In this document: piece after piece, positions 7,834-32,055 of the stretch
How the letters are laid out: the number at the start of each line of letters is the position of its first letter
Numbering within the stretch: the first letter of the stretch is position 1
DNA from: Thamnocephalis sphaerospora
Lineage: Eukaryota; Zoopagomycota; Zoopagomycetes; Zoopagales; Sigmoideomycetaceae
Direction: 5' to 3'
Assembly: GCA_003614735.1 (NCBI GenBank)
Contig: KZ992528.1
Location: 1-34,793 of the forward strand
Length of the DNA stretch: 34,793 nt
Translations under genes and position numbers: made by a program
Notes under the pieces: generated by a model
What the model saw: the letters and a program-made list of their open reading frames with translations, nothing else
Databases searched by the model: none
Told to the model about the DNA's origin: nothing

Positions 7834-9941
7834 ATGGTTGGCAATATGCGCCTGTGTATTTGGACAGTTTGTGCAGTGGCATTGCCAATGCTGCTGGCAT
7901 CGCAAGCGTCTCAGCCGGCAGCAGCGATGGCAGTCCGTGGTCATCGCCGCAGCATGGCTGATCGCATTGTAGACTTGTATCGTCGTGAAAACGAGGAAGG
8001 TCAGCCTATTCCTGGTGGTAAGTATATACCATGTTTGCATGCAGGTTCAAGCGAGCACTGCTAACCGTGCCTTTCTACAGTAACGCAAAAGGACTTTTAC
8101 TCTGATGGTTCGCCGGCGCCAGTGCTAGAGCTGCCGCCAGACTACCACGCCTCCGCTGCCGAGTCGGAGGCCGGCAGCACAAGCACGCCGGATGCTACAA
8201 AGGAAACAGCTGTCACGGCCAGTGATGCGGCGCAGACGTCAAGCACCAGCACCACATCCACGACGAGCACGCCCACTTCGACGTATGAGGCGTCGCCATC
8301 CGACACGCCTAGCGCCACAGCGACATCGGCTGCGCAGTCCAGCGTGCCCAATACGGCCGCCACGACGTCGGCGGTGCCGAGTGGCACAGAGTCTGTTACG
8401 CCCTCCAGCACGCAAACCACCGCGTCGCCATCGTCAACGAGCAGCACGGCAGTGCCGACGGCTCCTCCGGCTGCTTCGGCGGCTACTACGGCACAGCCTG
8501 CGCCCACTACCGTCTCGGTCCCGGGTGTTGGTGACTTGCATCTGTACAATCCGGCAGGTGCCCAGCAGCAAGGCCCAGTCAGCATTGCTCCTCATCAGCC
8601 GATCGTCTTTCTGTTTGGAAAGCCGGGTGGCAATACGGTAAGCGGTCAGCTTTACTACGCCAGCCAGCCAATTGTTCTGCAGCCGCCGACTACCACCGCT
8701 AGCCCTTCAACTGCGCCGTCTGCTTTGCCAGCACCCTCTTCCTTGAGCACCACGGCCCAGCCGACTCAGACACCGCTGAACAGCACACCAGTTCCATCGA
8801 CCACGACGACTACCACGACGGCGCCAGCGGCTACCACTACAGCCAGCACGACCAGCATGACCAGCACGACCAGCACCACGGCAGCGGCTACTACTACTAC
8901 TACGGCTGCAACCACCACCACCACCACCACCACAGCCACTGCCCCGACCACAACTGAGCTAGTTGCTGACTCAATTTTGCCATACCAGAATATGATCAAC
9001 CCGGCCGACCTCCCGCCGCCACCGCCAGCTCCGTCCACCACTGCGAGTGCCACCGCCACCGCGCCCGCCTCAACCTCAACAACTGCGCCTGCCGAGACCG
9101 CTGCACCTACTACATCGAGTGCGCCGACAGAGACCACGCCATCCAGTACGGCTGTCGATCCTGTTGCTGCCGCTGAACCGACATACAGTCCTACAAGCGA
9201 CTCAAATCCCGAAGATCCCATGGCCACGGTTGCACCAGTGCAGCCAACGGCAGAGACTGTCGATGAGGGAAATCCGGTAGGTAGTCGCAATGCTGCAAAC
9301 CTGTGAATAGGATGCACCGGCAAAAACACCTACTAACCACAACACGTCGCACTAGTAAACAGAGTCAGGCCATCGATGACAATGCGCAAACTCAGACGTT
9401 GGCACGGCTGATCCGCCGGAAGGGCATAACATACAGCGAAGCGCTCAACTCGACCCGCTATCAGATAGACAATCTTTCTATGCACAGCACAGTTTCTGAG
9501 GCAGATATGTTTCGGCAGTCCAGCGTTGGAATGGACCGCTCACCGGGTTACGACATCACCAACGACATTCAAGACCCGTCCAAAGCCAATCTATTTCCCT
9601 CGGAAACACCACAGACTGGTGCACCCGCCTACAATAGCACCGGCAACGGCACCGCCTACGGCAACGTGTCGATGAATGCCAACAACACGGCAGCCGGCTA
9701 TGCTACAAAAAGCGAAAACACCGTTCTTGTGGATGTCAACGCAGAAAAAGACGCCATCGCGAAAGCGGTCGACGGTGCGTACATTGCGGCTGACCAAGCG
9801 CTGCCCACCGAGCACATGCGCCGACACGTACCAGAGCTGCCAATGCCCCCGCCCCCTTCCATCCCCTCCACGTCGCCGCCGCCTCAGTTGCAGCGGCGGC
9901 GCCGGCGGCGTTATCGGCAGCCACGCCACGCCATGCCCTAA
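7834..9941 (+). CDS. Secreted Ser/Thr-rich mucin-like protein, unknown function
   Basis: Three exons: 7834-8017, 8081-9276 and 9363-9941, giving 652 residues. The introns have CTAAC branch-like sites and CAG acceptors; the second skips a nearby TAG that would give a stop. Residues 1 to about 32 form a signal peptide (charged start, then CIWTVCAVALPMLL, then small residues). A short conserved-looking part follows, then about 380 residues of Thr, Ser, Ala and Pro with pure Thr runs, expected to be heavily O-glycosylated. After the second intron the protein changes character: less Thr-rich, with several N-glycosylation sequons in residues 550-600. It ends in a Pro-rich piece, a run of six Arg and a short tail. 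No GPI signal or TM helix is seen at the end. A cell-wall or adhesive surface role is inference only. A 66-base in-frame GT-AG stretch near 9829-9894 could be a further intron. Confidence 0.75.
8888..8934. repeat. ACT/ACC trinucleotide tract coding for polythreonine
   Basis: Runs of ACT and then ACC codons encode threonine blocks in the mucin-like region of the secreted protein. Such a tract is prone to length change between strains. Confidence 0.85.
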
Positions 9942-10578: not shown

Positions 10579-13500
10579 CTACTCGTCCTTGCGCTCCAGC
10601 GACTGCTTCTGGACCAGCGCATAGTACAGACCCTTGTTGCGGATAAGCTCGTTGTGCTTGCCGCTCTCCAGAATGCGACCATCCTTGAAGACATAGATGA
10701 TGTCGGCATCCTGAATGGTCGACAGACGATGGGCAATGGTGATGGTGGTGCGACCCTCGGAGGCGCGATCAAGAGCCTCCTGCACAATCTTCTCCGACTC
10801 GGTGTCGAGCGCCGAAGTGGCCTCGTCGAGCAGCAGCAGACGCGGGTTGCGGAGAATGGCACGGGCAATGGCAATACGCTGCTTCTGACCACCAGAGAGC
10901 TGGGTACCACGCTCGCCAACCGGGGTGTCGAAACCGTCCGGCAGCGAGATGACAAAGTCGTAGATGTTGGCATCGCGTGCAGCCTGGTGAATCTCTTCCT
11001 CAGTGGCGCCCGGCTTGGAGTAGGCAATGTTCTCGCCAATCGTCAGATCAAACAGCACCGGCTCCTGACCGACCAACGAAATCTCAGAGCGCAGCGCCGG
11101 CAGCTTCCAGTCCTTGACGCTCACACCGTCCACGGTGACATCGCCAGACTCGGCGTCGTAGAAGCGCTCGATAAGGCCAATCATGGTGGACTTGCCGCAA
11201 CCAGACGAGCCGACCAGAGCGATCGTCTTGCCAGGCGTCACATCCAGGTTCAAGCCACGCAGAACCTTGACGTCCTTGCGAGCCGGGTAGCGGAAGCGCA
11301 CGTCGCGAGCCTTGACCTCACCGGTGAAGTTGCTCACAGTCTTGCCCTCCTGGTTGGTCGGGTCAATGGCCGAGACGCGGTCAAGCAGCTCAAAGATCTC
11401 CACGGCAGCAATGCGTGCCTTGGCGATATCCGGGGCAAAGCCAGATGTCTGACTGACAGCCATGGCGGAGAAAATAACGGCAAACATCACCTGCATCATC
11501 TTCTGCACGTCGTACTCGCCGTCCAGCACCAGGCGCGAGCCGTAGTAGAGAGCAACCGAGTAGATGAAGAAGAGCAGGCACTGCGACGCGGCAAAGGTGA
11601 CAGCAGACACAAACGCGGTGCGCACCGACATGGCGTGCGGACCCTCGATGGCGGAGCTGTACAGCTCGCGGAACGTGTCCTCGCGGCCAAGCGACACAAC
11701 CGTGCGCATGTTCTCCACAGCCTCGCAGGCAATGTGGGCCGAGTGCTCGTACGCACTCTTGGTCTTCTTGTTGAGGTTGAGCTGCATGCGCACATTGAGC
11801 ATGTTGGCGAGACCGAGCACAGGCACACAGGCAAGCACCACCAGCGTAAGCTTCCAGCCGTAGACAAACGCAATGATAAGACCAGTCAGCAGCGTGCTGC
11901 CCATCTGCACAAACGTGCCAATCAGACGACCGGCAATGCCGTTGACCATCTCAGCTTCGGTAGACAGCTTGGCGCACAGCACACCAGTGTTGTTGAGCTG
12001 GTCGTCAAAGAAGCCCATCTCCTGGCGAAGGATTGCGGCAAAGGTGACCTTGCGGATGCGGTGGACAAGGCGTTCACCGCTGTAGACAAACAGGCCAATG
12101 CGGCAGGCCACAGCAAAGAAGGTGATGATGCCGAGAACGACAAACATGAGCGACCAAAAGTTGGAGTCCGACTTCATCTTCTCCGGATCGCTTTCAAAAG
12201 TAGACAGCGAGTTGATGACCTTGGTGAAAATGACAGAGAAGACTGGCATAATAGCACCATCAATCACCGAACCGGCAAGCGCAGGCAAGATAAACTTGAG
12301 CTCGGGCATGTTCATGCGCACCACGCGCATGAACGGAGTCGGCTTCTTGCTGTACTCCTCACGCTGGCGCTCCTGGGCCTCCTTGACCTCCAGCTCGGAC
12401 ATGACGGTATCCTTGGTCTTGGTGTAGCCGAGCGGCTTGCCAAGCGGCTGGTCGACATCGAGTGCTACTTCATCGCTAACGTCATCCTCATCGTCAGCCT
12501 CGCCGAGCAGCTTCGCCTCCTGAGCCATGTCGCGGTCCTTCTCCATACGCAGCTGCTGAGCCTGAACCAGCTTGCTGTACAGACCGCCACGTGCAATCAG
12601 TTCGTCGTGCTTGCCAACTTCAATAATCTTGCCGCGGCTCATGACCACAATCTTGTCCGCATCGCGAATGGTCGACAGACGGTGAGCAATGGTGATGGTG
12701 GTACGGCCTTCGGCGGCACGGTCGAGCGCCTCCTGCACCAGCTTCTCAGATTCAGTGTCGAGGGCCGAGGTAGCCTCATCCAACAGCAGAATACGCGGGT
12801 TGCGCACCAAAGCGCGTGCAATGGCAATACGCTGCTTCTGGCCACCGGAAAGGAGTGCACCCTTCTCGCCGACCAGTGTGTCGTAACCCTCCGGAAGCGT
12901 CATGATAAAGTCGTGCACGTTTGCAGAGCGGCAGGCAGCCTCCACGTCTTCCTGGGTCGGCTGGCGCTCCGGATCTAGCCCGGACGAGCCCCAAAGAATG
13001 TTCTGCTTGATTGAGGCCTGGAACAGAACCGGCTCCTGACCGACAAGACCAATGTGCTGGCGGAGATAGCGGAGGTTGATGTCCTGAATGGGCGTACCGT
13101 TCAGCTTGATGGAACCGGACAGCGGGTTGTAGAAGCGCTCGAGCAGGGCAACCATGGTAGACTTGCCAGAGCCGGACGAGCCGACCAGAGCGACCGTTTG
13201 GCCAGGCTCGACATCCAGGTCAAAGTCGTACAGCACCTGCACATCCGGACGCGACGGATAGGCAAAGTTGACACCGCGCACCTCCAGCTGGCCGGTGATC
13301 TCCGGACGCAGACCGCTCTCATCGTTGTAGTCGATCTGAGACTGGCGGTCAATCACGGCAAAGATCTTGTAGGCAGCGCCCTGGGCCGTCTGGATCGAGC
13401 TGAGCGGCGTGGCTGCCATACCAATGGTCATGGTACCAATGATCAGGGCAAAGAACACGTTCAACACGCCCTGGATGTCCATTTCGCGGTCAAGGATGAG

Positions 13501-14757
13501 GCGCGAGCCATACCAGAAGCCAAGGCCGTAGGCGCAGAACAGCACACCGAGCATCGTGCCGACAGACAGACCAAGACCAAGTGACTTGCTCTTGCCCTCC
13601 TTCAGCGCCATATCGAGCTTGGACTCGTAGCGAAGCACCTCGCGCTCCTGGCCACCAAATGCAGACACAGTCTTGATACCGGCGATAACTTCCTCAGCGA
13701 CAGCACCGGCCTTGGCGTAGGCGTTCTGACCACCACGGACAGCCTTGCTGACGACGTGGCCCATGATAGCACCAGCGGTGGCAAGCACCGGGAACACGCA
13801 GAGCAGCACAAGTGCCATCTTCCAGCCCTTGGTGAAGGCGATGATGAAGCCAGCCAGGAAAGTGCACACGCTCTGAATCACCATGCCGACCTTCTCGGAG
13901 GTACCTTCTTGCACCAGGTTGACATCGCTGGTGATGCGCGAGGTGAGGTCACCGGTGGATGTGGCATCAAACCAGGCAATTTCCTGGCGGATAATGGCAG
14001 AAAAGTAGTCGTGGCGCATGCGCGAAGTCTGGTTCTCGCCAGAGACCATCCAGAGCGACTGCTGGCCGTAAGCGACGACAAAGGTGACAACGCCGAGAAT
14101 GACAAAGTAGATGACAAACTTCTTGACCTCGTCATCAAAGTGATCGCGTGCCGCGTTCATATCAACCGGCTTGCCTATCGCAGCTAGCCCCTGGGCAGTG
14201 CCATAGTCGGTGAATGCGGCCAGCAGACTGGAGAAAATAATGGTCATGACAGGAATGGCAACACCAAGCAGCAGGGAGCAGATGGCGGCCAGAACAATGA
14301 GCAGCTTATCGGTAGCAGTGGCGAAACGGAACAGCTGCAGCATGGACACCTTCTCGTCAGGCTCCTTCTTGACTTCCTCCTCATCTTCAAACTTGGGGTG
14401 CTTGCGGAAGCGCGCAAAAAAGCCGCGCTTCTTCAGCTGCTCCTCATGCTGCTTGCGGCGCTCCTCACGCTGACGAGCCTTCTCGCGTGCCTCGGCGGCC
14501 TTGCGTGCCACCACCTGATCTTCAGTGAGCATTGCAGAGCCCGTCGACAGCGCGGTGGCCGTCTTCTTCAGATCGGTGGTCCGCTGCACTTCCTCGTGCG
14601 CTATCTCGGCAGACGAGCCGGACGATTCGGTGTTGACCTGCGTCGCAGCATCGTCGAACGTCACACCGCCAGTGTGCGTTGCCTCGGACATTTCCGTGTA
14701 CTCTTCGGTGACAAAGACATGCCGGCCACTGGTCGAGTGGCTGTTATCGGCAGACAT
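10579..14757 (-). CDS. Full-size ABCB-type multidrug transporter (P-glycoprotein-like)
   Basis: ATP-driven exporter of the ABCB1/MDR family with TMD-NBD-TMD-NBD layout in one polypeptide of 1392 residues, without introns. The N-terminal 145 residues are hydrophilic and include a charged, probably helical stretch at about 80-115 (AEAREKARQREERRKQHEE). NBD1 has Walker A GSSGSGKST near 524, signature LSGGQKQRIAIARAL near 635, Walker B ILLLDEATSALD near 657 and the IAHRLST switch. NBD2 has GSSGCGKST near 1182, LSGGQKQRIAIARAI near 1289, LLLLDEATSALD near 1311 and IAHRLST. Both ATP sites therefore look intact. An acidic linker lies around 745-775. Membrane location may be plasma membrane or vacuole. 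The substrate cannot be read from sequence; drug efflux, peptide pheromone or sterol export are all possible. The start is the first ATG with a coherent N-terminus. Confidence 0.97.
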   Translation of the reverse strand: MSADNSHSTSGRHVFVTEEYTEMSEATHTGGVTFDDAATQVNTESSGSSAEIAHEEVQRTTDLKKTATALSTGSAMLTEDQVVARKAAEAREKARQREERRKQHEEQLKKRGFFARFRKHPKFEDEEEVKKEPDEKVSMLQLFRFATATDKLLIVLAAICSLLLGVAIPVMTIIFSSLLAAFTDYGTAQGLAAIGKPVDMNAARDHFDDEVKKFVIYFVILGVVTFVVAYGQQSLWMVSGENQTSRMRHDYFSAIIRQEIAWFDATSTGDLTSRITSDVNLVQEGTSEKVGMVIQSVCTFLAGFIIAFTKGWKMALVLLCVFPVLATAGAIMGHVVSKAVRGGQNAYAKAGAVAEEVIAGIKTVSAFGGQEREVLRYESKLDMALKEGKSKSLGLGLSVGTMLGVLFCAYGLGFWYGSRLILDREMDIQGVLNVFFALIIGTMTIGMAATPLSSIQTAQGAAYKIFAVIDRQSQIDYNDESGLRPEITGQLEVRGVNFAYPSRPDVQVLYDFDLDVEPGQTVALVGSSGSGKSTMVALLERFYNPLSGSIKLNGTPIQDINLRYLRQHIGLVGQEPVLFQASIKQNILWGSSGLDPERQPTQEDVEAACRSANVHDFIMTLPEGYDTLVGEKGALLSGGQKQRIAIARALVRNPRILLLDEATSALDTESEKLVQEALDRAAEGRTTITIAHRLSTIRDADKIVVMSRGKIIEVGKHDELIARGGLYSKLVQAQQLRMEKDRDMAQEAKLLGEADDEDDVSDEVALDVDQPLGKPLGYTKTKDTVMSELEVKEAQERQREEYSKKPTPFMRVVRMNMPELKFILPALAGSVIDGAIMPVFSVIFTKVINSLSTFESDPEKMKSDSNFWSLMFVVLGIITFFAVACRIGLFVYSGERLVHRIRKVTFAAILRQEMGFFDDQLNNTGVLCAKLSTEAEMVNGIAGRLIGTFVQMGSTLLTGLIIAFVYGWKLTLVVLACVPVLGLANMLNVRMQLNLNKKTKSAYEHSAHIACEAVENMRTVVSLGREDTFRELYSSAIEGPHAMSVRTAFVSAVTFAASQCLLFFIYSVALYYGSRLVLDGEYDVQKMMQVMFAVIFSAMAVSQTSGFAPDIAKARIAAVEIFELLDRVSAIDPTNQEGKTVSNFTGEVKARDVRFRYPARKDVKVLRGLNLDVTPGKTIALVGSSGCGKSTMIGLIERFYDAESGDVTVDGVSVKDWKLPALRSEISLVGQEPVLFDLTIGENIAYSKPGATEEEIHQAARDANIYDFVISLPDGFDTPVGERGTQLSGGQKQRIAIARAILRNPRLLLLDEATSALDTESEKIVQEALDRASEGRTTITIAHRLSTIQDADIIYVFKDGRILESGKHNELIRNKGLYYALVQKQSLERKDE

Positions 14758-16214
14758 GTTGCTTGGCTATTCGCACAGGACGGTTATTCGCAAACGAACG
14801 TGTCCCACAGGCAAGCGTGGGAAGCGCAGTGACACTGGTTAGTTGCTGGTGTGACGTGCGGCTGGGCGGTGTTCTCACCTTTTCAAAGTATTGAGCGTCC
14901 TCTGGAACACCAAGGCAGAAACACGCAAAAGAGAAAAGAGCTGCGCGCTAGCAGGGCAGCAACTAGAAAAAAGGAAGCGCAGAGGCGCGTATGTATAATA
15001 GAAATTTAAAGCGTCGCAGCAGTGAGCAGGCACTAGGGGCGAGCGTACACTAAGCGGCTGAGATATACTAGAGGGGAAAGGGAAGTAGAAAGTGCGCAAG
15101 CACGAGTATGCACGGTACGAAGTATACTGGCGATTGCCTGTGCTTCCTAGCGGCACGCGCCTTTATAAACCGCTGCGCATCGGCACCCTGACGTTCAGAG
15201 GCGAGGCCCAACCAGTGCAATCGGGCAAATTAGGCCGTATGCCCACCAATGAGAGTGCGCCCCGAGCTCCGTCCGGCACGGGAAAAGGAAATTTACTGCA
15301 TCCCCGAGTTCGCCGAGCGCCAATCTACCCACACAGCACGAGACCGCCGCGACTTCTGGCCCAAAAGGTAGCCAGGCTTCCATGCGCGCAGCGCCAAAAG
15401 TATTGTCGGCATTGCACGGTAATAGACGCTATCGCCAGCGCAGATCCCACGTGCAGCGTCCATGCAAGTCATCCAGAAAAGAAGCGCAAACGCTTGTTTA
15501 GCCTGCCCGGCGGCTCGCATGCTAGCACTGCTTCGTTCGCGCGTTCTATGTACAGGCGGCCAGTGGGACGGAAAAAGATCGGTTCGGCCACACGCCTATT
15601 GTCCGCCGCCTTGAGCGGTATCGCAGGCCGCACCCCAGCTATATGGCGTGATGGTCTTGGCACGCACACACTAGTCGGGCAACCTGCAAGATTCGCCGAT
15701 CGGCCAAATGCCCCCGGAGTCGCGGACTATCTTTGCCGGTGTGCTACTAAATTGATGAAAGCACACGGAGCACGCTTAGTGTAACCACCGCATGCTATCG
15801 CATCCCGTCGTTTGGACACTTGTTCTTTGACACATCGATAAGCCGCTGAGACAGGGCAAGCGGTGCCGAGTCAGATGGCCGTCACCACCGTCATGTGAAA
15901 GCAGCTCTACTATAATTATCGCCGTTCCAAGACGATGGCCAGCGTGTGGCTACCCCACGCCATCTAGCACTGCTGCCAGACTACGTGTGAACTCGGTAGA
16001 TATCACACTGTTTCTGCTTGCGCCTCGACGACCTCGCTGGACGTCGCTGATGTTGATAGAGCGCATGTGTTTGGTGTGCTCCAGCTGAGATCAGCAGCTC
16101 GTGCACCGTGCGTACGATCAATCTCGTGGTCTATCGCTTTCTTTGGACATTACTCCGGAGCACAATCACCGGCCTGCCTATGGCGCTTTTATTATTCCGT
16201 AGTCGTACCGAGGC
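14758..16214. promoter_or_regulatory. Upstream region of the ABC transporter and 3' flank of the Mgr3-like gene
   Basis: This is a 1.46 kb spacer between two minus-strand genes. Its left end should hold the transporter promoter; TA-rich stretches lie at 14993-15010 and 15060-15070, and a palindromic CACGTG lies at 15448-15453. A plus-strand ORF of 230 codons (15092-15784) shows no domain and no family resemblance. No tRNA-like T-loop was found. Confidence 0.5.
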
Positions 16215-22797: not shown

Positions 22798-24403
22798 CTA
22801 CTCTGTCTTGAGATCGCCGATGGGCGTAGGAGGCAGGCCTGCTGCAGCGGCCGCGGCTGCCGCTGCCACCGCATGCAAGTCTGTCACGGCGCTGCTAGCG
22901 GTCGCCAGCGGATCACCGGGTGTTGTCGGACTGAGCGGATGATGGTGGACATGGGGCACGTGCGCCATGTTGGGCTGGCCGACGGCGGACAAATGGTGGA
23001 CATGGTGGTTCAGATGCTGGCCAGACGTCACCGGCGAGCCAAGCAAGCTGGCGGCATCCGAGGAGCCTCCGGTCGATCGGCTGGGCGATACCGTGGATGC
23101 ATCGGTGCTGGCACCGTTGCTCATCACACTAGGTGGCCCTTCAATCTTGGTCATGTGCGCCGACAAATACTTGTTCATCTCAAAACAGTTGAGCCGCTCG
23201 AGACCGTTGAAGACCGCCCGCAGCTTGTCGTCGGTGGTAAAGTAGCGCTTGTCGTTTGGGTCCTGCAGGTTGTACTTGCGAATGTGTTCCCAAATGGCAC
23301 TGACGACATGCGTACGGCCTGCTTCGGGCGCACCAACCACGGCCATCAGTTCTGTAGAGAGCGCCATCGGCTTGGTGAGCGGTGTGGCTCGCTTGCGGCG
23401 GTTTGGATCCAGATTCTGCGGCGGCTTCTTGCGCGACTTGGCCTTTTTCGACACTCGCTTGGGCTTTTCTTTCTCCTCATCCACCACCTGGCTGGACAGG
23501 TTGCGGCGACGTGCGGCATCGCTCAGCTTGAGGTCTTTGGCTCCCATGGGAGCTGGCGTGCCCGTCGGACTGCCACCAACCACCGCCACACCCATGGGCG
23601 TGGATACGTTGGGCGGCAGCATGTACTGGGGCGGCACAGGCGGCGGCAGCACCATGTTTGAATGCTGAGCTAGCGCTGCTGCCATCGCACTGTGCTGGTG
23701 CGGCGCGCCGGCCGAGAAGCCCGGCTGGTGCAGCGTGTGCGGAAACACGCCCGGAAGACCTGGCGGCGGCAGGCCATGGGATGTGACGGGCAATGGCAAA
23801 ATGTGCTGCTGCGGCTGCGGCTGCTGCGGCTGCTGCGGCTTACCAGGCTGCATGCGGTGCATTCCCGGCTGGCTGAGATTGGGAAGCTGGTGTGGGAGCA
23901 TAAAATGCTGCGGCTGCGGCTGGCTCGGCGGCGGCAGGTGTTGCGGCTGGGCTGGCTGCAGATAGTGCGGCTGCTGATGCTGCGGAGGCATTTGCTGGTG
24001 GTGCGGCGGCAGAGCCAGATTACCGATGCCGGTGACCGCGTGGATGTTGTTTAGACAGGCCATGATCAGTCCGTCAATCTCCTGCTTGCGCTCGTTGAGA
24101 TCGACGCCATTCTCGTACTCTAGCTTGCGGCGCACTTGCTTTGCCGTCACCGTGTTGAGATCAGCTGTCGCGAGGATCTCTACGTGAGTGTACGTGCGTG
24201 CGTGCGTGCGTGCGTACGTGCGACGGATGGTGAGTAAATGCGGACCGACGTAGATGTATGCGCATGTGGACGATAAGCCCCGTGACGCTAGCGCAACATG
24301 CATGCCGTATTGGGAACGGGCCACCGCCCACATGTCATGCGTCGCCGCACGTCTGCGTACCTGTAATCTGGCGTGCCAAATGCTGCTGAGACAGTGAAGC
24401 CAT
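22798..24403 (-). CDS. DEK_C and SWIB/MDM2 domain protein (UAF30/Spp27-like)
   Basis: Nuclear chromatin-associated factor; relatives are the UAF30/Spp27 subunit of the RNA polymerase I upstream activating factor. Two exons: 24403-24361 and 24179-22798, with a 181-base intron, giving 474 residues. The splice (phase 1) completes the DEK_C domain: MASLSQQHLARQIT joins EILATADLNTVTAKQVRRKL. Residues 60-240 are rich in Gln, His and Pro. A basic stretch near 250-280 (KPKRVSKKAKSRKKPP) could be a nuclear signal. SWIB lies near 278-358: MALSTELMAVVG, VVSAIWEHIRKYNLQDP, FTTDDKLRAVFNG, and the MNKYLSAHM end. The tail has Ser/His-rich and nine-Ala segments. The usual fungal and plant proteins have short linkers, so the long QHP-rich linker is unusual. 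Role in Pol I versus Pol II transcription is not decided. Confidence 0.9.
24191..24222. repeat. TGCG tetranucleotide microsatellite in an intron
   Basis: About seven units of the four-base repeat lie within intron 1 of the DEK_C-SWIB gene, 12 bases from the acceptor side. A change in length here could affect splicing of the first exon. Confidence 0.85.
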
Positions 24404-26201
24404 GGCGGCGATATATGTTGGATAGAAAGGCTGCCGGAACGGCGGTCGTTGAGGTTGCCGTACAGATGCGTGGTAATACCGCGGCTGCTACGTGCCCACA
24501 CACGTACACACACACGACGCTGCGTGTGGTAAATCGTTTCAGGCGTGTGCTGCGCATTGCGCGTACGTCAGCATGTGCTACTCCTCGGCGCGCGACTGTG
24601 TCTACCGGCGACAACCGCCCACCACAACGCTACACTGTGTCACCGCCGCCATCGAACCATCGAGTGGCTGCTAAACGCGACAACACAACCGCGTATCTGC
24701 CGCAGAAAAGGCGAGACGACGCGTGCAACGGCGTTTCGACACCGACACAAGATCCAACCGCGCCGCCATTGCCACACGTACGACGGTCGAAGCACGCGTG
24801 AGGCAACGCGTCAACGCAACAGCAGCGCACCCGAGCGTAGACAAACAATGACAGCCGCGCACGCACCAATCTATAGACGTGGTCGGCGCAGCAAGGCACA
24901 AACAACAGCAGTACGCGGCTACGCTGCAGGCAGTGCGCTTGAAAAGACAGGCAGCAGGCCGGCGGCCGTGTATGCGTGCAAGCGTGGTGTAGCCGCGGCG
25001 GCTGCAGCTGGGCACCGTAATAATTGGGCAAAGCGCGAAGCATGAATGGCCAAGTGATAAAAAGGGGCAGCACCCGCGCCACTTGACCCGCGCCGCCGCT
25101 AGACTTACCGACGAGATACGTCAGCCGGAAAGTGCACCTACCGAGGGGAGCGGTGCAGAAACGACGGAGTTTATGTAGGGAGGGGCGGCGGTGGCGGTGA
25201 TAGCGGCGGTGGTGGCGGTGGCGGTGGTGGCGACGGTGGTGGTGGTGGCGGTGGGGTGGTAGGAGCGCTAGTCACTGAGCGAGGGTGGGCAGTTCTGGTC
25301 AGCGTAGGACCAGGGACACCTATGTTTGCGTTATGGTGGTGGGTGAAACTCGGCGGTTCCCTAGAGAGGCAGGCTGCCGCAAGGTAGGATGGATGGGAGC
25401 CGAAAAGGTTGGGAAGGCGTCCAAGCAGAGGCCACCAAGGAAGGAAGAAAGAGAGAAGGCGCAAGTCAGGAGGGTACAAACTCAGAGAGGAGGCTGTGTG
25501 GGTGGGGTGTGTATGGAAGTGTCTGTGTGCGTATGCGGTCCAAAGAAAGACCAAACGACCGAAAGAGAGAGAAGAAAGAGTGCGCGAGGGGAAGAGGCAG
25601 GAAGCGTGCGTGGAACAAGAGCAATGCCGTCAGCCCTTTTTAAACGATGTGCCTCGAAAAGACTTTTTATGCGTCCGCCAATCGGATGCGTGCTCATCAC
25701 CCGTCGCCACCCTCTCACCACCGGTACAGTGGGTCCAGTTGCTCAAATGGGCACACGCACGCACACGCCAGCCGCTGTCTTGGGCAACGTGCCGGCCGAT
25801 GCGCAAGCAGCCAGCAGTAAGCGGCCGGCAGACGCGCGAACAGGCGGACAGGCGGACAGGCGGTGTGGACGGTCGGAGACGCCGGCCACACGCACGGCTA
25901 CGGAAACCGCATGATCGGCCGGCCATTGGCTCCGACCAGGTGACCAACCGTGCGCCTAACATCGCCGACGGCACAGTCATCGAGCGCCATCGCTAACCCT
26001 ACGTAATGATAAAGGCGACATGCTGTCTGTCACGTGCAAGTATAGGTCGCCGACGGGGGCAAGCAGCAGATGCGGCGAAGGCGCCAAGACGTGCCGCCCA
26101 GCCCAGCGGCGCCAACACCGTTAGGCTAGAACGCTGCGGTGTAAGACGAAAGGTAACGTGCAACTAGCCCAATATATCGCCGCAACAAAGGCCTGCGCAG
26201 C
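24404..26201. promoter_or_regulatory. Long divergent upstream region of the DEK_C-SWIB gene and the large repeat gene
   Basis: A 1.8 kb region without a supported gene. The plus strand is purine-rich from about 25360 to 25640, so it is pyrimidine-rich in the sense of the minus-strand gene. A GGT/GGC tract lies at 25184-25260. An AATATATCG stretch near 26170 is just upstream of the large gene start. Plus-strand ORFs (such as 25285-25914) are Arg/Gly/Glu-rich low complexity and not credible. Confidence 0.5.
25184..25260. repeat. GGT/GGC trinucleotide microsatellite
   Basis: A nearly unbroken tract of GGT and GGC triplets is about 75 bases long. It is not inside a supported coding exon. Confidence 0.9.
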
Positions 26202-29200
26202 ATGCGTGGCCTGCTGAGCGACCGGCACACTTTCCCCTCTTCGCCCCGGTCATCTCTCCAGTCGCCACCTGCCGCACCGGCTAGCGCCAGCATGTTCAAC
26301 GTGCTCTCCGACACCAATCGGCTCAGATATCGAAGCTTATCGGTATGCCTTGAGAACCTGCATCGGTCGGTCCGACTGCGCCAGTTGCACTATACGCTTG
26401 CTTCGGGCGAGTGCAAGTCGCCGCCGGCGGTATTCCTCAAGCCGAATGCTACCGCCACCGCCGAGTTTACCAGCAGCATTCTGGGGACATCCACGTGCGG
26501 CGCGCTTGCTTATAAGCTCGCGACAGTCTTGGCCAACGATGAGACTGCATCGCCAGCCGCAAATGTAGGTCATCCTGCAGCGGCATCACAGCAACGCCAA
26601 CCCACCTGGTTGGTCATTGCCTGGGATGTCCTGGTTGGAGACAGAGACGGCTTTACCGTGCACTTGGTGGAAACCACCGACGATACCGGCAGCCATGCGA
26701 TGAGCAACGAAACGCTGGCCACGCTGCTGGATCGACTCTGCGTCAGTACCGCGCACACTAGAAATGCCTCCGATACACGTCTGCCTGGCGTGCCGCCTAT
26801 GCACCGCACCAATGTGGTGCTGCAGAATAGCTACATGCTAGAGGATGGCCTATGCTTTACCATACACGCGACCATGAGCAATGTGCGCTCTGCGGAGTTG
26901 CGTATATCGCTGTACGAGGAAAGCTTTGAAAGCAGCACGGTGCAGCTCACCGATCCTATTCCTTTGACCACGCTCCTAGCAACATCTCAGCCGCCCAAAC
27001 GGTTGCCTCTGGCCCCAATCCCGGTGATACCAAGTATCGGCACACATCAACTTATGGATATACCACCTCTCTCTTTGCGCTCAGCTGCCAAAAATACGGC
27101 ACGGCCAGTACAGCTGTCCCAGCCAAGCCAGACGGGCAGGGTAACAGACAAGAGCAGTGTGCGGCGACATCAGGATCTCACACTGGTCCTGCATAATCGG
27201 AGCACGGAAATTCAGTTTACAAATCCAATCCTACACAGTCCACATGCCAACTGTTCGCCATCACCACCAGATAATCTATCGCCTAATGCATCCTTTAGCA
27301 TGAAGACGGCACCGCAACCTGATGTGTGCAACTGTGGCGTCCTGCTCTACCGTATAGCGATACGCCGGCCTGGAGCAGAACCAGAGCCCAGCCCGGGCTA
27401 CTATCTCGCTGTTGCCTGGAAATTGTCCAGAAATCCGAGTGACTGGCTGGTCGACATTGTACAGCTGGATCCGGCTCTTGATAAACAAAAAGCGCAAACT
27501 GTAGTGGCCAAGCAGATGTTTGGATTGCTTGGCGCAGAGTTGCATCGGGGTGGATCCGGACGGCCGCGCTGGAAAGGCTGTCTGATGGCGCGCGGCCGTG
27601 GTCTGGTAGTCTGCGAACTGCAAGCGCATGTCACCAGCGAAGCAGCAGGCCGCGTTGACATAGCACTGCGGACGCACACAGCATCCGTATCCTCCATGCC
27701 GCGTACTCTGCCGCCGCCACTCTGGATTCCCGCTGTAGGCTTTCGGTAAGTCTGCGCCACGTCAAATTGACCCTGCAAGGATTACTAACCGGTATAGCGC
27801 ACCGGTACCAGTCATGCTACCGTGCCAGGTATCCTCGCTGTGAAGCAGGCGCTCCAATACATTAACGATAATCGCAGAAAGGCGGTGAATGCGGCAAACG
27901 ACAAGGGCACAAAATTCACACCGGCAATTGTGCTGGTGGAAAACCAAATTCCTTCACTGTGCTTGCGTCGCTACGCCATCGACGAGTCGCTCAGCTACAA
28001 CATCGCCTTTGATGGGGAAAATCCAAAGAACATCGCCAATGCGTTGTCCAGCGGTCAAACAGAGGATGCACCGATGATCATGCCATGCGAGGCTGAAGCG
28101 CTGGCTACGCTGAACCAGCAGACACAACACATATTGTCTGGATACTGCATCTACCAGCTGGAAAACACCAACGCTAAAAAGGACGAGCACGCTTCGCTGG
28201 CTCGTTCTTTGACGCTAGGCCAAGGGTCTGTTCCGAATTCACCTGCCGAGAACATCTTGGCGCAGGTGCGCAGCGGAGACTTTTTGCTAGTCAGCTGGAC
28301 ACCGACCGAGGCACAGAAATCCGCATACAGCGTCGAACTAATGCAAGCTAGCACAAGCTTTTCAGTTGCCTCACCATCCTGGCAGTGCGCCATGTTGCTA
28401 ATAAACGCACTTGGATTGGCAGTGCGTGGGCAGTGTGTTGTTCGCACATCACCTCCGGGACCGTCAAGAATAGGCCAGCCTACGACAAGCAGCATCACCA
28501 AAGAAACGACACTGGCAGTAGGATACTACAGCCTTACCAAAATACCTGTCATCTCTGTGGACCTCACCATGCCGGGCTTGATCGTAAGTGGTGCAACAAC
28601 GTCTACTCGTTAGGAGCTACGCTGGCGATCGACATGCGCTAATGTGGCGGCGAGCCAGCCAGGAGATATTCAAGAGACCATGATGGCACCTTTTCCAGAC
28701 AAAGGCAAGTGGCTGACTATCACAGCTTGCACCGCTTGCTAAGCTGCGCTAATACCACATTATATGCAGCCGGCGAGCCGCTTTTGCCAAACGTGCGCAT
28801 CGTTGTGGAGAATGCACACGCCAAACTGGTGCTTACCAATGCACAAACCTACACCATTTCGTGCGTGCCGATCGATGCGGACGTGCGCCTGCGCGCAAGC
28901 ATTGGCTATGGTGGCACGCGCATCTTCCAGTATGGCGCCGCATCGCTGCGGCAGATTGGCGTGCTCACGTTCGATCTGCAGACCGCACAGCAGTCAGGAC
29001 CTACATCCTGTCTAGTGCTTGCATGGCGTCAGTCGGCAGAGTTTGGTCGCGACTTTTTTGTGTACAGCAATGTAATGCAGGAAGACGACAGCAAGCAGGG
29101 TGCCAACACGCTTAGCGTCGTCAATGTGTACAGCCGCGTGTTCAATCAAAAGGACAGTGTATTTATACAGCAGATGGATGGCGTGCTCGCCTCCAATGCC

Positions 29201-32055
29201 AGCCTGCACTACGCCATAGCCACTTCTATTCGACATGTAACTCGTGGTCGCCAAAATGAAGAAGGCGTCGAGATTACTGTGCGCCTTACAGACGATGTGC
29301 CAACAGTAAGTAGTAGAGTCGCCACATGCACACTACCGTTCTCGCGCCCATCTATTAACCGACTTGTCATACACCTGCCTGCAGTGCAATGAGGAAGTGC
29401 AGCAGCGTGATGGACAAGGTTAGTGAACATGCACTTGGCAGCTTAACGCTAGCTTACCATTGGCGACGGCTAGATCTACATGAACTCCAAGTCCAAGTGC
29501 AGAATCTACATTCGGGATTGCAGCTGGCGGATATTCGTCTCTTCCTGACAGCCGGCAAGGAGGTGCAAAAGCCGCAGTCGACAGCACGTCCAGGTAAGAT
29601 TGCGCTGGCTCGCATTCAGCCGGCTGGACACGATGCCAGTACCGCCATGTCCGGCCTTTTGCTGGCCAAATTTGTCGGTATGAGCGGCGAATCGTTGGAC
29701 GGTGATGCCTATTTCATCGCCGGCTGGACAGTGTCGGAAACTACCGATACTGCTGAGACACGCCAGTTTTTTGCACAGCCACTTGCATCTCTTCCCTCGC
29801 CTATGGAGAGTTTGGAAAAAGGCGATATTGTACCGGAAAGTCTTTTGGACCAGATGCTACAACAAGCACATTCGGCCGGTGAACAAGCGCAGCAACACCA
29901 CGTTCTCTCATCTGACCTGCCAGACGCACTTATTCAAATGACAATGAATCCGCAAGGGCCGCCAAAGCTGGAAATAGTAATACGCTCGTCGTCAAACACG
30001 TCCAGCCGCAAACCCATCATGCCTTCCAGGTTTTCCAGCCTAGGACCAAAGAGTCTGAGACGCGCTACGACCATCAAGTCCATGGCGCCATCGGTCATGA
30101 CCACAACAGAATCAATATACATCGTAGCGGGCGACGAAGAGGACGAATACTTGCCAGAGGACGGCGTTTGGTCAGACGACGATTGCGTCAATCTGCTGCC
30201 AACAAGCGACATTAACCGTAGGCACGCTAGCATCATACCCGGCAGTCCGTTGTTCAATTTTGGAGCATTGCCAGAGCCATCTAATGACGCAGGCGACTCT
30301 TCAGGCAGTGCCAAGAGTAGCAGTGCTTCTGAAATCACTAAGATCCGCACGGACACAAAAGGGCAAGAGAGCAGCGCAGACGGAGCGCATCTGCTGGCAG
30401 CTGTACCGTTGCCTGCAGAAAAAGAGTGAGTGCCGACATGCCAGCATGGCTATAGTGCACGCGCTAAAACCATCTTCCTACATCGTGAATTGCAGCCACA
30501 CTGTCGGTGGCGAAAAAGGCGGCAGATCATCTGCTTTGCATAATTTGGAAGCCAGCGATGCTGCGCTGTACCTCTTGCTTGATTCTACCAATCTGCTAGA
30601 GCCGGCACCATTGGCGCGCTCCTCCAGTGACGGTCCGTCGACATCGTCCGTATCCTTGGATCGGTTCTCATCAGAGAATAGCGGTAGGTGCTGCCATAAC
30701 CTGTCGTTTATTTACGCCTCGGCTGACATGTAGCGTAAGGTGCAGGTAACAGCATATCCTCCCCGCTTTGCACAAGACCGGATTCAAGAGCTAGCGTTGA
30801 GCTGCCAGCAAGTGAGCCAGCACTACTCGTGGATACCCAACACACTTTAGGAAACAGCACCACCACCGATTTATCAGCTGCTGCAACTCGCACAGTCAGC
30901 ATCGCCAGTCGTGTAAATTCTGTTACTGTCGAGATTGCCGACGCAGTGGCAGATGCATCATTACTTTGTATTGGCAGTTACCCCGCTCTAGGCCATGCCA
31001 TCGAACTACAGGCCGACTCGACTACTGCAAACACAAGCAAGTGGATGCTTGCGCCAGACAACTGCCAGCAATCCGACATTAGCTACGTGTACCGTCTGAC
31101 GCCGACAGCCACATACGACAGCTCAGGTACTTTGCTGCCATCACCTGTGATGTTGGTCATGCGCATACGTGCCGAGGACAGCACCGGCAATTCTGTGCAA
31201 AGCAAAACATTTCAGTTTGGAGCTGTTCTATTGCAAAAGCATGCCATCCTAGACCCTGAACACGCCGACTATGTAAAGCGTGTGCACGCCACCAATGTCC
31301 AGTGCGTCGTAGTGAGCGAAAATCACAAACAGTGCTTTGAACTGGATGCTACACGCAGCCTGCTGATCGACGCCCAGACAACCATAGCATCATCACAAGA
31401 GAGCGGCAGCACAGACTTGCTACGCATCACACTACGCACGGTCGCATCCGCTAGCGGCCTGCCACCCACACCACCGAATGCCGCCAACCTAGCAGCATTG
31501 CATAGAATCATGTCGCCACCGCAGCAACTTGGCCGCACTACGGTGCAGCTGACCGTTTACAACAACCATCCGATGATCGTGTTACGACCTGTGGCAGCGC
31601 TGGCCAGCAGTCCACACAGCACAGCCGTCTCGACTATCCATCCGCGCCACTCAATCACCGTGCCACTTGTGCTGCCGCAGCCGTCTACCAACGATGTTGG
31701 ACTGTCCGGTAAACCCGCGGCAGTGAAAGAAGCATTGACACTGTGCACACTTCACTGGCCCGACGGTCAACCACTTTCAGCACCACTGGAGCGGCTTCAC
31801 ATTGGTCGGCAACCGAGGCAAGTGTCCAACACGGCGTCGCTGGCAGATGTGTGGGATGTTTGGCTAGGAGCCATGCAAAACACCACCAGCATTGGCACAG
31901 CAGCTGCGCCATCCCACGGCCAGTGTGTGCGGCGTGAATATGCATTCGCCGCAACGCCAGATACACGCCTTGTCGTGGGCATCGCCTGGTCGCCGCCTAC
32001 AGCAGCGTGGTCTTCAGCCTCGGTGGCCGTAATGCTTAGCCACTGGCAAACCTAA
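26202..32055 (+). CDS. Large protein of about seven diverged tandem beta-rich units, possibly cytolysin/lectin-like fold
   Basis: Eight exons: 26202-27745, 27812-28583, 28659-28704, 28770-29305, 29385-29418, 29474-30425, 30496-30683 and 30746-32055. All phases agree, giving 1793 residues; intron 3 is GC-AG. I recognise no named gene. Units begin at about residues 43, 322, 550, 790, 980, 1413 and 1620 with related strands (LENLH, LHNRS, VENQI, VENAH, VQNLH, EIADA, VYNNH). Each has a later hydrophobic strand, with Trp in six: VIAWDV, AVAWKL, LVSWTP, VLAWRQ, IAGWTV, VMRIRA, GIAWSP. A GxLxY-like strand precedes it in several. Residues about 1170-1350 are acidic and Ser-rich, probably disordered. 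No signal peptide or TM helix is seen, so it is probably intracellular. The pattern weakly resembles the actinoporin/fungal lectin superfamily; membrane-damaging activity is not shown. A start at 26292 is an alternative. Confidence 0.75.

Follow-up and report, generated by a model that had tools for sequence, protein, structure and literature searches.

Tandem copies of a predicted actinoporin-like domain in a large protein of the fungus Thamnocephalis sphaerospora

The cytolysin/lectin (actinoporin-like) fold is familiar as single-domain pore formers (sea-anemone toxins) and mushroom lectins. Does a gene of Thamnocephalis sphaerospora (Zoopagales, Zoopagomycota) encode a chain of such domains and, if so, what might the chain do? 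The gene lies on contig C105 (GenBank KZ992528.1) of the 14.46 Mb, 594-contig assembly, and the whole 34,793-nucleotide stretch analysed is referred to here as the window. Its public database entry is the hypothetical protein THASP1DRAFT_28960, a single protein of 1701 aa, and the eight-exon model analysed here gives 1793 residues. Predicted structures support a beta-sandwich of the cytolysin/lectin superfamily as the repeated domain, which occurs in five certain and two probable copies.

Units were cut at corresponding positions in the window gene and its paralogs, one profile was built for each position, and the profiles were compared in pairs with hhalign. The unit table excludes three pieces with unclear boundaries (C93c, C93d and one of the C62 pieces, the second), and it was drawn up before C112 and C113 entered the analysis. 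All of the 105 column-shuffled controls, five for each of the 21 position pairs, stayed below 1% probability. Eight of the ten pairs among units 1 to 5 had E-values between 1.2e-16 (units 1 and 2) and 5.6e-5 (units 2 and 3). The weak pairs were units 3 and 4 (E 4e-4 over 15 columns, 35% probability) and units 3 and 5 (E 0.0071, 5%). Unit 3 matched the unit 1 profile across 165 columns (E 1.3e-8), and the profiles of units 1, 4 and 5 matched unit 2 at E 1.2e-16, 3.2e-6 and 1.2e-10, respectively. The best matches to units 1 to 5 were at E 0.0041 for unit 6 and E 0.00098 (18 columns) for unit 7, and the comparisons of unit 6 with units 2 to 5 and 7, as well as those of unit 7 with units 2, 3, 5 and 6, were near the shuffled level. 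Both units also matched a profile of the C112, C113 and C62 units (Table 1) and the profile of all 51 units detected in the genome (E 5.2e-5 for unit 6; E 3.5e-4 over 16 columns for unit 7), and 40 shuffled controls for the two pooled profiles did not exceed 1.2% probability. In a joint alignment of units 6 and 7, the paralog rows fell on unit 6. Since the profile comparisons were strong for units 1 to 5 and weaker for units 6 and 7, we regard the former as certain copies and the latter as probable ones. Thus, the original prediction of about seven tandem copies of one domain is clear for the first five, and for the last two it is supported but weak.

All strands named in that prediction, the seven opening ones as well as the later ones, are present in the protein. 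The distances between them, given there as 74 to 144 residues, measured 70 to 141 residues from start to start. The pairing of the unit 7 opening strand with GIAWSP, 141 residues away, is probably wrong. The profile alignment picks LERLHIG, 77 residues away, and this strand is preferred because both the alignment and the spacing in most other units agree with it. The linker that follows unit 5 looks disordered from its composition, and comparison of linkers between paralogs recovered short common pieces only (best E 0.014). Residues 1192 to 1203 of the linker, IYIVAGDEEDEY, resemble IYILAGEEYVDY in the linker of C383 (E 0.12, not significant), possibly a short motif.

The model of unit 2 was confident, a beta-sandwich with the topology of actinoporins and fruit-body lectins, and its closest folds were those of pore-forming actinoporins. 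Unit 3, modelled together with the helix that precedes it, gave a fair model with the same fold. The best of five models (mean predicted local distance difference test, pLDDT, 69.0) was the only one used, models 2 to 5 (mean pLDDT 66.1, 59.6, 58.8 and 56.9) being set aside. Both predicted models match the fold that had been proposed from the order of strands, and profile homology supports its extension to units 1, 4 and 5. Mean information was 1.37 in strands and 0.91 in loops, and of the 25 positions with the strongest conservation, 22 lay in strands. An N-x-H motif at the first turn was also conserved (N in 45 and H in 33 of 50).

Searches by sequence did not recover this relationship. Pfam searches with five exon pieces, 13 units and eight units gave scattered matches below the cut-off (best E 0.0061). 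No match to PF06369 (actinoporin), PF07367 (FB_lectin) or the aegerolysin family, which we take to be PF06355, was listed at E <= 10 for exon pieces or units, in a listing whose filters drop most matches above 0.1. Genome searches found PF06369 in 0 places, an uninformative result as its control was found nowhere either, and PF07367 in 0 places, with a control that matched in one of 14 genomes, below the cut-off. Against PDB sequences, exon 1 gave four weak matches (best E 0.062), none of them credible, and the unit profile gave 0 matches. Another query, A3, matched three viral envelope or coat chains (E 0.34 to 1.2), which were taken as chance hits.

The window gene belongs to a large family within the T. 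sphaerospora genome. A hidden Markov model (HMM) seeded with 20 rows, with 19 of the seeds coming from the unit-bearing contigs, was run iteratively on the reading frames of 18 regions, comprising the window plus 17 contig stretches, at E <= 1e-3. At least 51 units were found on 16 contigs, counted from 68 listed matches after 17 weaker than E 1e-3 had been set aside. As lower bounds, there were six units on C113, five each on C105, C108 and C12, four each on C112, C383 and C62, three on C189, two each on C125, C27, C333, C362, C435, C71 and C93, and one on C397; those on C113 or C62 may belong to more than one gene. No units were found at this threshold in the C250 and C162 stretches. A match to exon 8 outside the window (genome search, E 0.03) contained an internal stop and was not counted.

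Four of these genes are long (C105, C12, C108 and C383), and 23 of their 24 units matched best at the same position in another of the four, whereas random choice gave a mean of 3.7 such matches and a maximum of 12 in 10000 trials. The same-position match of window unit 6 was weak (E 0.013), and window unit 7 was the sole exception. Units 2 to 6 are carried in the window order by C12, C383 and C108, unit 1 also by C12 and C108, and units 2 to 4 of C12 stand within one uninterrupted frame. Because the unit order is common to these paralogs, the array was in place before the genes separated, and the earlier view that the copies are old is borne out by diverged paralogs that retain this order. Among these genes, only that of the window seems to have unit 7, since the unit 6 frames of C12, C383 and C108 end shortly past unit 6, although later exons are possible there.

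Known relatives of the fold bind sphingolipids or sugars. A constant scaffold with loops that vary, present about seven times in each chain, suggests multivalent binding, and we tentatively favour, at somewhat below an even chance, a scaffold that binds membranes or glycans multivalently and in which no pore-forming helix could be demonstrated. Such a protein would be soluble and leaderless, and several of its sandwiches would bind membrane lipid headgroups or glycans simultaneously. Multivalency would make binding strong while loops vary between units, and the protein would act through multivalent binding rather than as an oligomeric pore built from single monomers. During growth it might work on membranes or wall of the fungus itself; alternatively, it could be stored for defence and recognition, much as mushrooms keep lectins in the cytoplasm. 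Fungal lectins of the cytoplasm have been described, along with further proteins that affect nematodes (PMC6238071, PMC10512399). Actinoporin-like proteins occur in fungi, where a role in target-cell recognition is proposed, and bryoporin favours membranes with animal sphingolipids (PMC9526159). Several points weigh against a binding scaffold. The tie to known structures comes solely from the predicted fold, since Pfam and PDB sequence searches yielded nothing credible. Some units may have lost binding, and the predicted helix before unit 3 and the helix-like starts of several paralogs leave a little room for membrane insertion or pore formation.

The last point leads to an unlikely alternative, a membrane-perforating defence protein, with helices before some units inserting in the manner of actinoporins and the chain as a whole amounting to a covalently linked oligomer. 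The closest folds, as noted above, are pore formers, and a helix is predicted before unit 3. However, this helix did not superpose with that of actinoporins (alignments to rows 1-42 begin at model residues 29-36), and its prediction drew on alignment rows that bear N-terminal helices. Helical-looking N-terminal segments were also seen in C93, C189, C435, C71 and C397, with hydrophobic moments of 0.39 to 0.51, but shuffled segments equalled these moments in 3 to 20% of cases. In the paralogs L036 (C189), L031 (C93), L038 (C435) and L039 (C71), a helix-like segment with the pattern GIxEGxQIAEKLVEAGxFVWDKTR precedes unit 1, the place at which actinoporins have their inserting helix. Among the 13 segments whose moments were calculated none was decisive (best 0.028 against shuffles), and unit 1 of the window protein, with its N-terminus, gave no amphipathic helix signal, its moment being below the shuffle mean.

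Somewhat less probable is a mechanical or structural spacer, in which the units retain the fold and bind nothing. Conservation concentrated at core positions (22 of the 25 best conserved columns) and the high divergence of units 6 and 7 would fit such a protein. However, the N-x-H motif is conserved as well, and a unit order kept over a long time in four diverged genes, together with the size of the family, suggests selected and distinct roles for the units. We consider a secreted or displayed protein that acts at contact with other organisms improbable. The large family expansion would fit an interaction role, and T. sphaerospora is named among mycoparasitic early-diverging fungi in its sequencing study, which deals mostly with mycoparasites (PMC6784888). 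Against this, inspection of either version of the start found no hydrophobic leader, no dedicated signal-peptide program having been run, and the whole protein has one marginal hydrophobic window, inside unit 3. The intracellular location originally proposed is consistent with these observations and goes no further than that.

It is very improbable that two or more adjacent genes have been wrongly spliced together, for although exons 3 and 5 measure just 46 and 34 bases and THASP1DRAFT_28960 differs at exon 3, that entry likewise spans the whole stretch as a single protein, the paralogs carry the units in the window order, units 2 to 4 of C12 share a frame and a splice position is shared with related loci. 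The eight exons and seven in-frame splices of the original prediction, which took them for one gene, were reproduced exactly as 1793 codons and a stop; about 66 stops would be expected in random sequence of equal composition and length. The correlation of codon usage with the neighbouring ABC gene was 0.54 in frame, against 0.01 and 0.08 when read out of frame. The model has GT-AG borders for six introns and GC-AG borders for intron 3, and THASP1DRAFT_28960 carries different residues in the stretch 28584-28769, which takes in exon 3. Relative to this model, THASP1DRAFT_28960 starts at Met31 and lacks most exon 3 residues and the first 50 residues of exon 8, so residues 1-30, exon 3 and the start of exon 8 are uncertain. 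Intron 1 was checked by comparison with 11 related loci at the point where unit 2 ends. A GT stands at the same codon position after unit 2 in all 11, and beyond it the frame stops at once in nine and 13 codons later in C108, as with an intron. In C12, the eleventh, the frame continues past this point, with PGGTRYITSAG in the place of AVGFRHATVPG in the spliced window. Because C12 reads across the site without an intron, the acceptor at 27811 is supported. An exon 2 start at 27798 broke the frame, and 27812 was used instead.

Table 1. Repeat units, linker, predicted helix and exons of the window gene
Feature	Position	Strand	Details
Unit 1	26331..26921	+	residues 44-240; HMM E 2.6e-37 (seed member); vs unit 2 profile E 1.2e-16
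Unit 2	27168..27680	+	residues 323-493; HMM match; modelled as actinoporin-fold sandwich
Unit 3	27921..28583	+	residues 552-772; HMM E 6.5e-13 (not seed); modelled, same fold, lower confidence
Unit 4	28787..29299	+	residues 794-964; HMM E 2.1e-22 (seed member); vs unit 1 profile E 2.8e-10
Unit 5	29479..29994	+	residues 980-1151; HMM E 1.4e-27 (seed member); vs unit 1 profile E 5.8e-12
Unit 6 (probable)	30916..31449	+	residues 1415-1592; diverged; profile E 7.4e-6, 159 columns, vs C112/C113/C62 units
Unit 7 (probable)	31534..32052	+	residues 1621-1793; most diverged; profile E 2.5e-5, 78 columns, vs C112/C113/C62 units
Ser/Thr-rich acidic linker, units 5 to 6	29995..30915	+	residues 1152-1414; contains introns 6 and 7
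Predicted helix before unit 3	27822..27899	+	residues 519-544; model residues 4-29; moment not significant vs shuffles
Exon 1	26202..27745	+	residues 1-514 and two bases of 515; THASP1DRAFT_28960 start Met31 at 26292
Exon 2	27812..28583	+	intron 1 acceptor at 27811 backed by paralog C12
Exon 3	28659..28704	+	46 bases, uncertain; followed by GC-AG intron; most residues absent from THASP1DRAFT_28960
Exon 4	28770..29305	+	in-frame join
Exon 5	29385..29418	+	34 bases; THASP1DRAFT_28960 agrees
Exon 6	29474..30425	+	in-frame join
Exon 7	30496..30683	+	in-frame join
Exon 8	30746..32055	+	includes stop; first 50 residues absent from THASP1DRAFT_28960

Relatives beyond this genome were sought by searches of protein databases, in which the matches listed included the window gene itself and one 187-residue JGI protein, P0002. 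A further search of this kind had no match among those listed, though paralogs exist in T. sphaerospora. In a control, the profile of this last search gave very strong scores to the window protein and to many paralog frames; no T. sphaerospora paralog appeared in the database results, which are therefore uninformative on other species. P0002 is a close relative of unit 4 with three member sequences (longest contig 4111), and related genes may thus exist beyond this assembly. Among viral predictions in BFVD, A0A4D6EIA8, a 165-residue protein of Pandoravirus celtis, was the sole match to unit 2 at E <= 0.001 (2.4e-5).

Elsewhere in the window, positions 10582-14766 of the minus strand encode a full-length ABC transporter with two membrane and two ATPase parts (Pfam) in one frame of 1395 codons, and its close paralogs are on C247 and C41 (74% and 71% identity). 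A gene with DEK_C and SWIB domains occupies 22801-24567 on the minus strand, and 8065-9303 on the plus strand is a long Thr/Ser/Pro-rich frame without a Pfam match.

The units resemble actinoporins (Fav, sticholysin II, FraC, equinatoxin II and bryoporin) in predicted fold, and the alignments of unit 2 show about 10-15% identity. Unlike actinoporins, the window protein has about seven units per chain, no Pfam match and no demonstrated N-terminal helix in unit 1. The matched chains of fungal fruit-body lectins (XCL, ABL, SRL and BEL) and Nakanori are 141-202 residues long, and to our knowledge these proteins are single domains; the window protein, in contrast, has no match to the FB_lectin Pfam family. 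Aegerolysins (ostreolysin, pleurotolysin A and RahU) are shorter single domains and matched less well. A literature search for tandem or multi-domain actinoporin-fold proteins, made with broad queries and with subscription journals mostly outside its coverage, found no such arrays described, the phrase "actinoporin domain" was absent from the literature searched, and no account of what THASP1DRAFT_28960 does was found. Thus, the fold is known, the tandem architecture is new and the sequence family has no Pfam model. It is conceivable, if doubtful, that an early-diverging fungal lineage made this single-domain fold into giant tandem arrays whose position-specific loops read foreign or self membranes and glycans.

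A large, chain-forming family unseen by Pfam means that the cytolysin/lectin superfamily is wider than its annotation. The gene family is a candidate for a natural multivalent binder of lipids or glycans, and it bears on how a toxin-like fold gets other uses in fungi.

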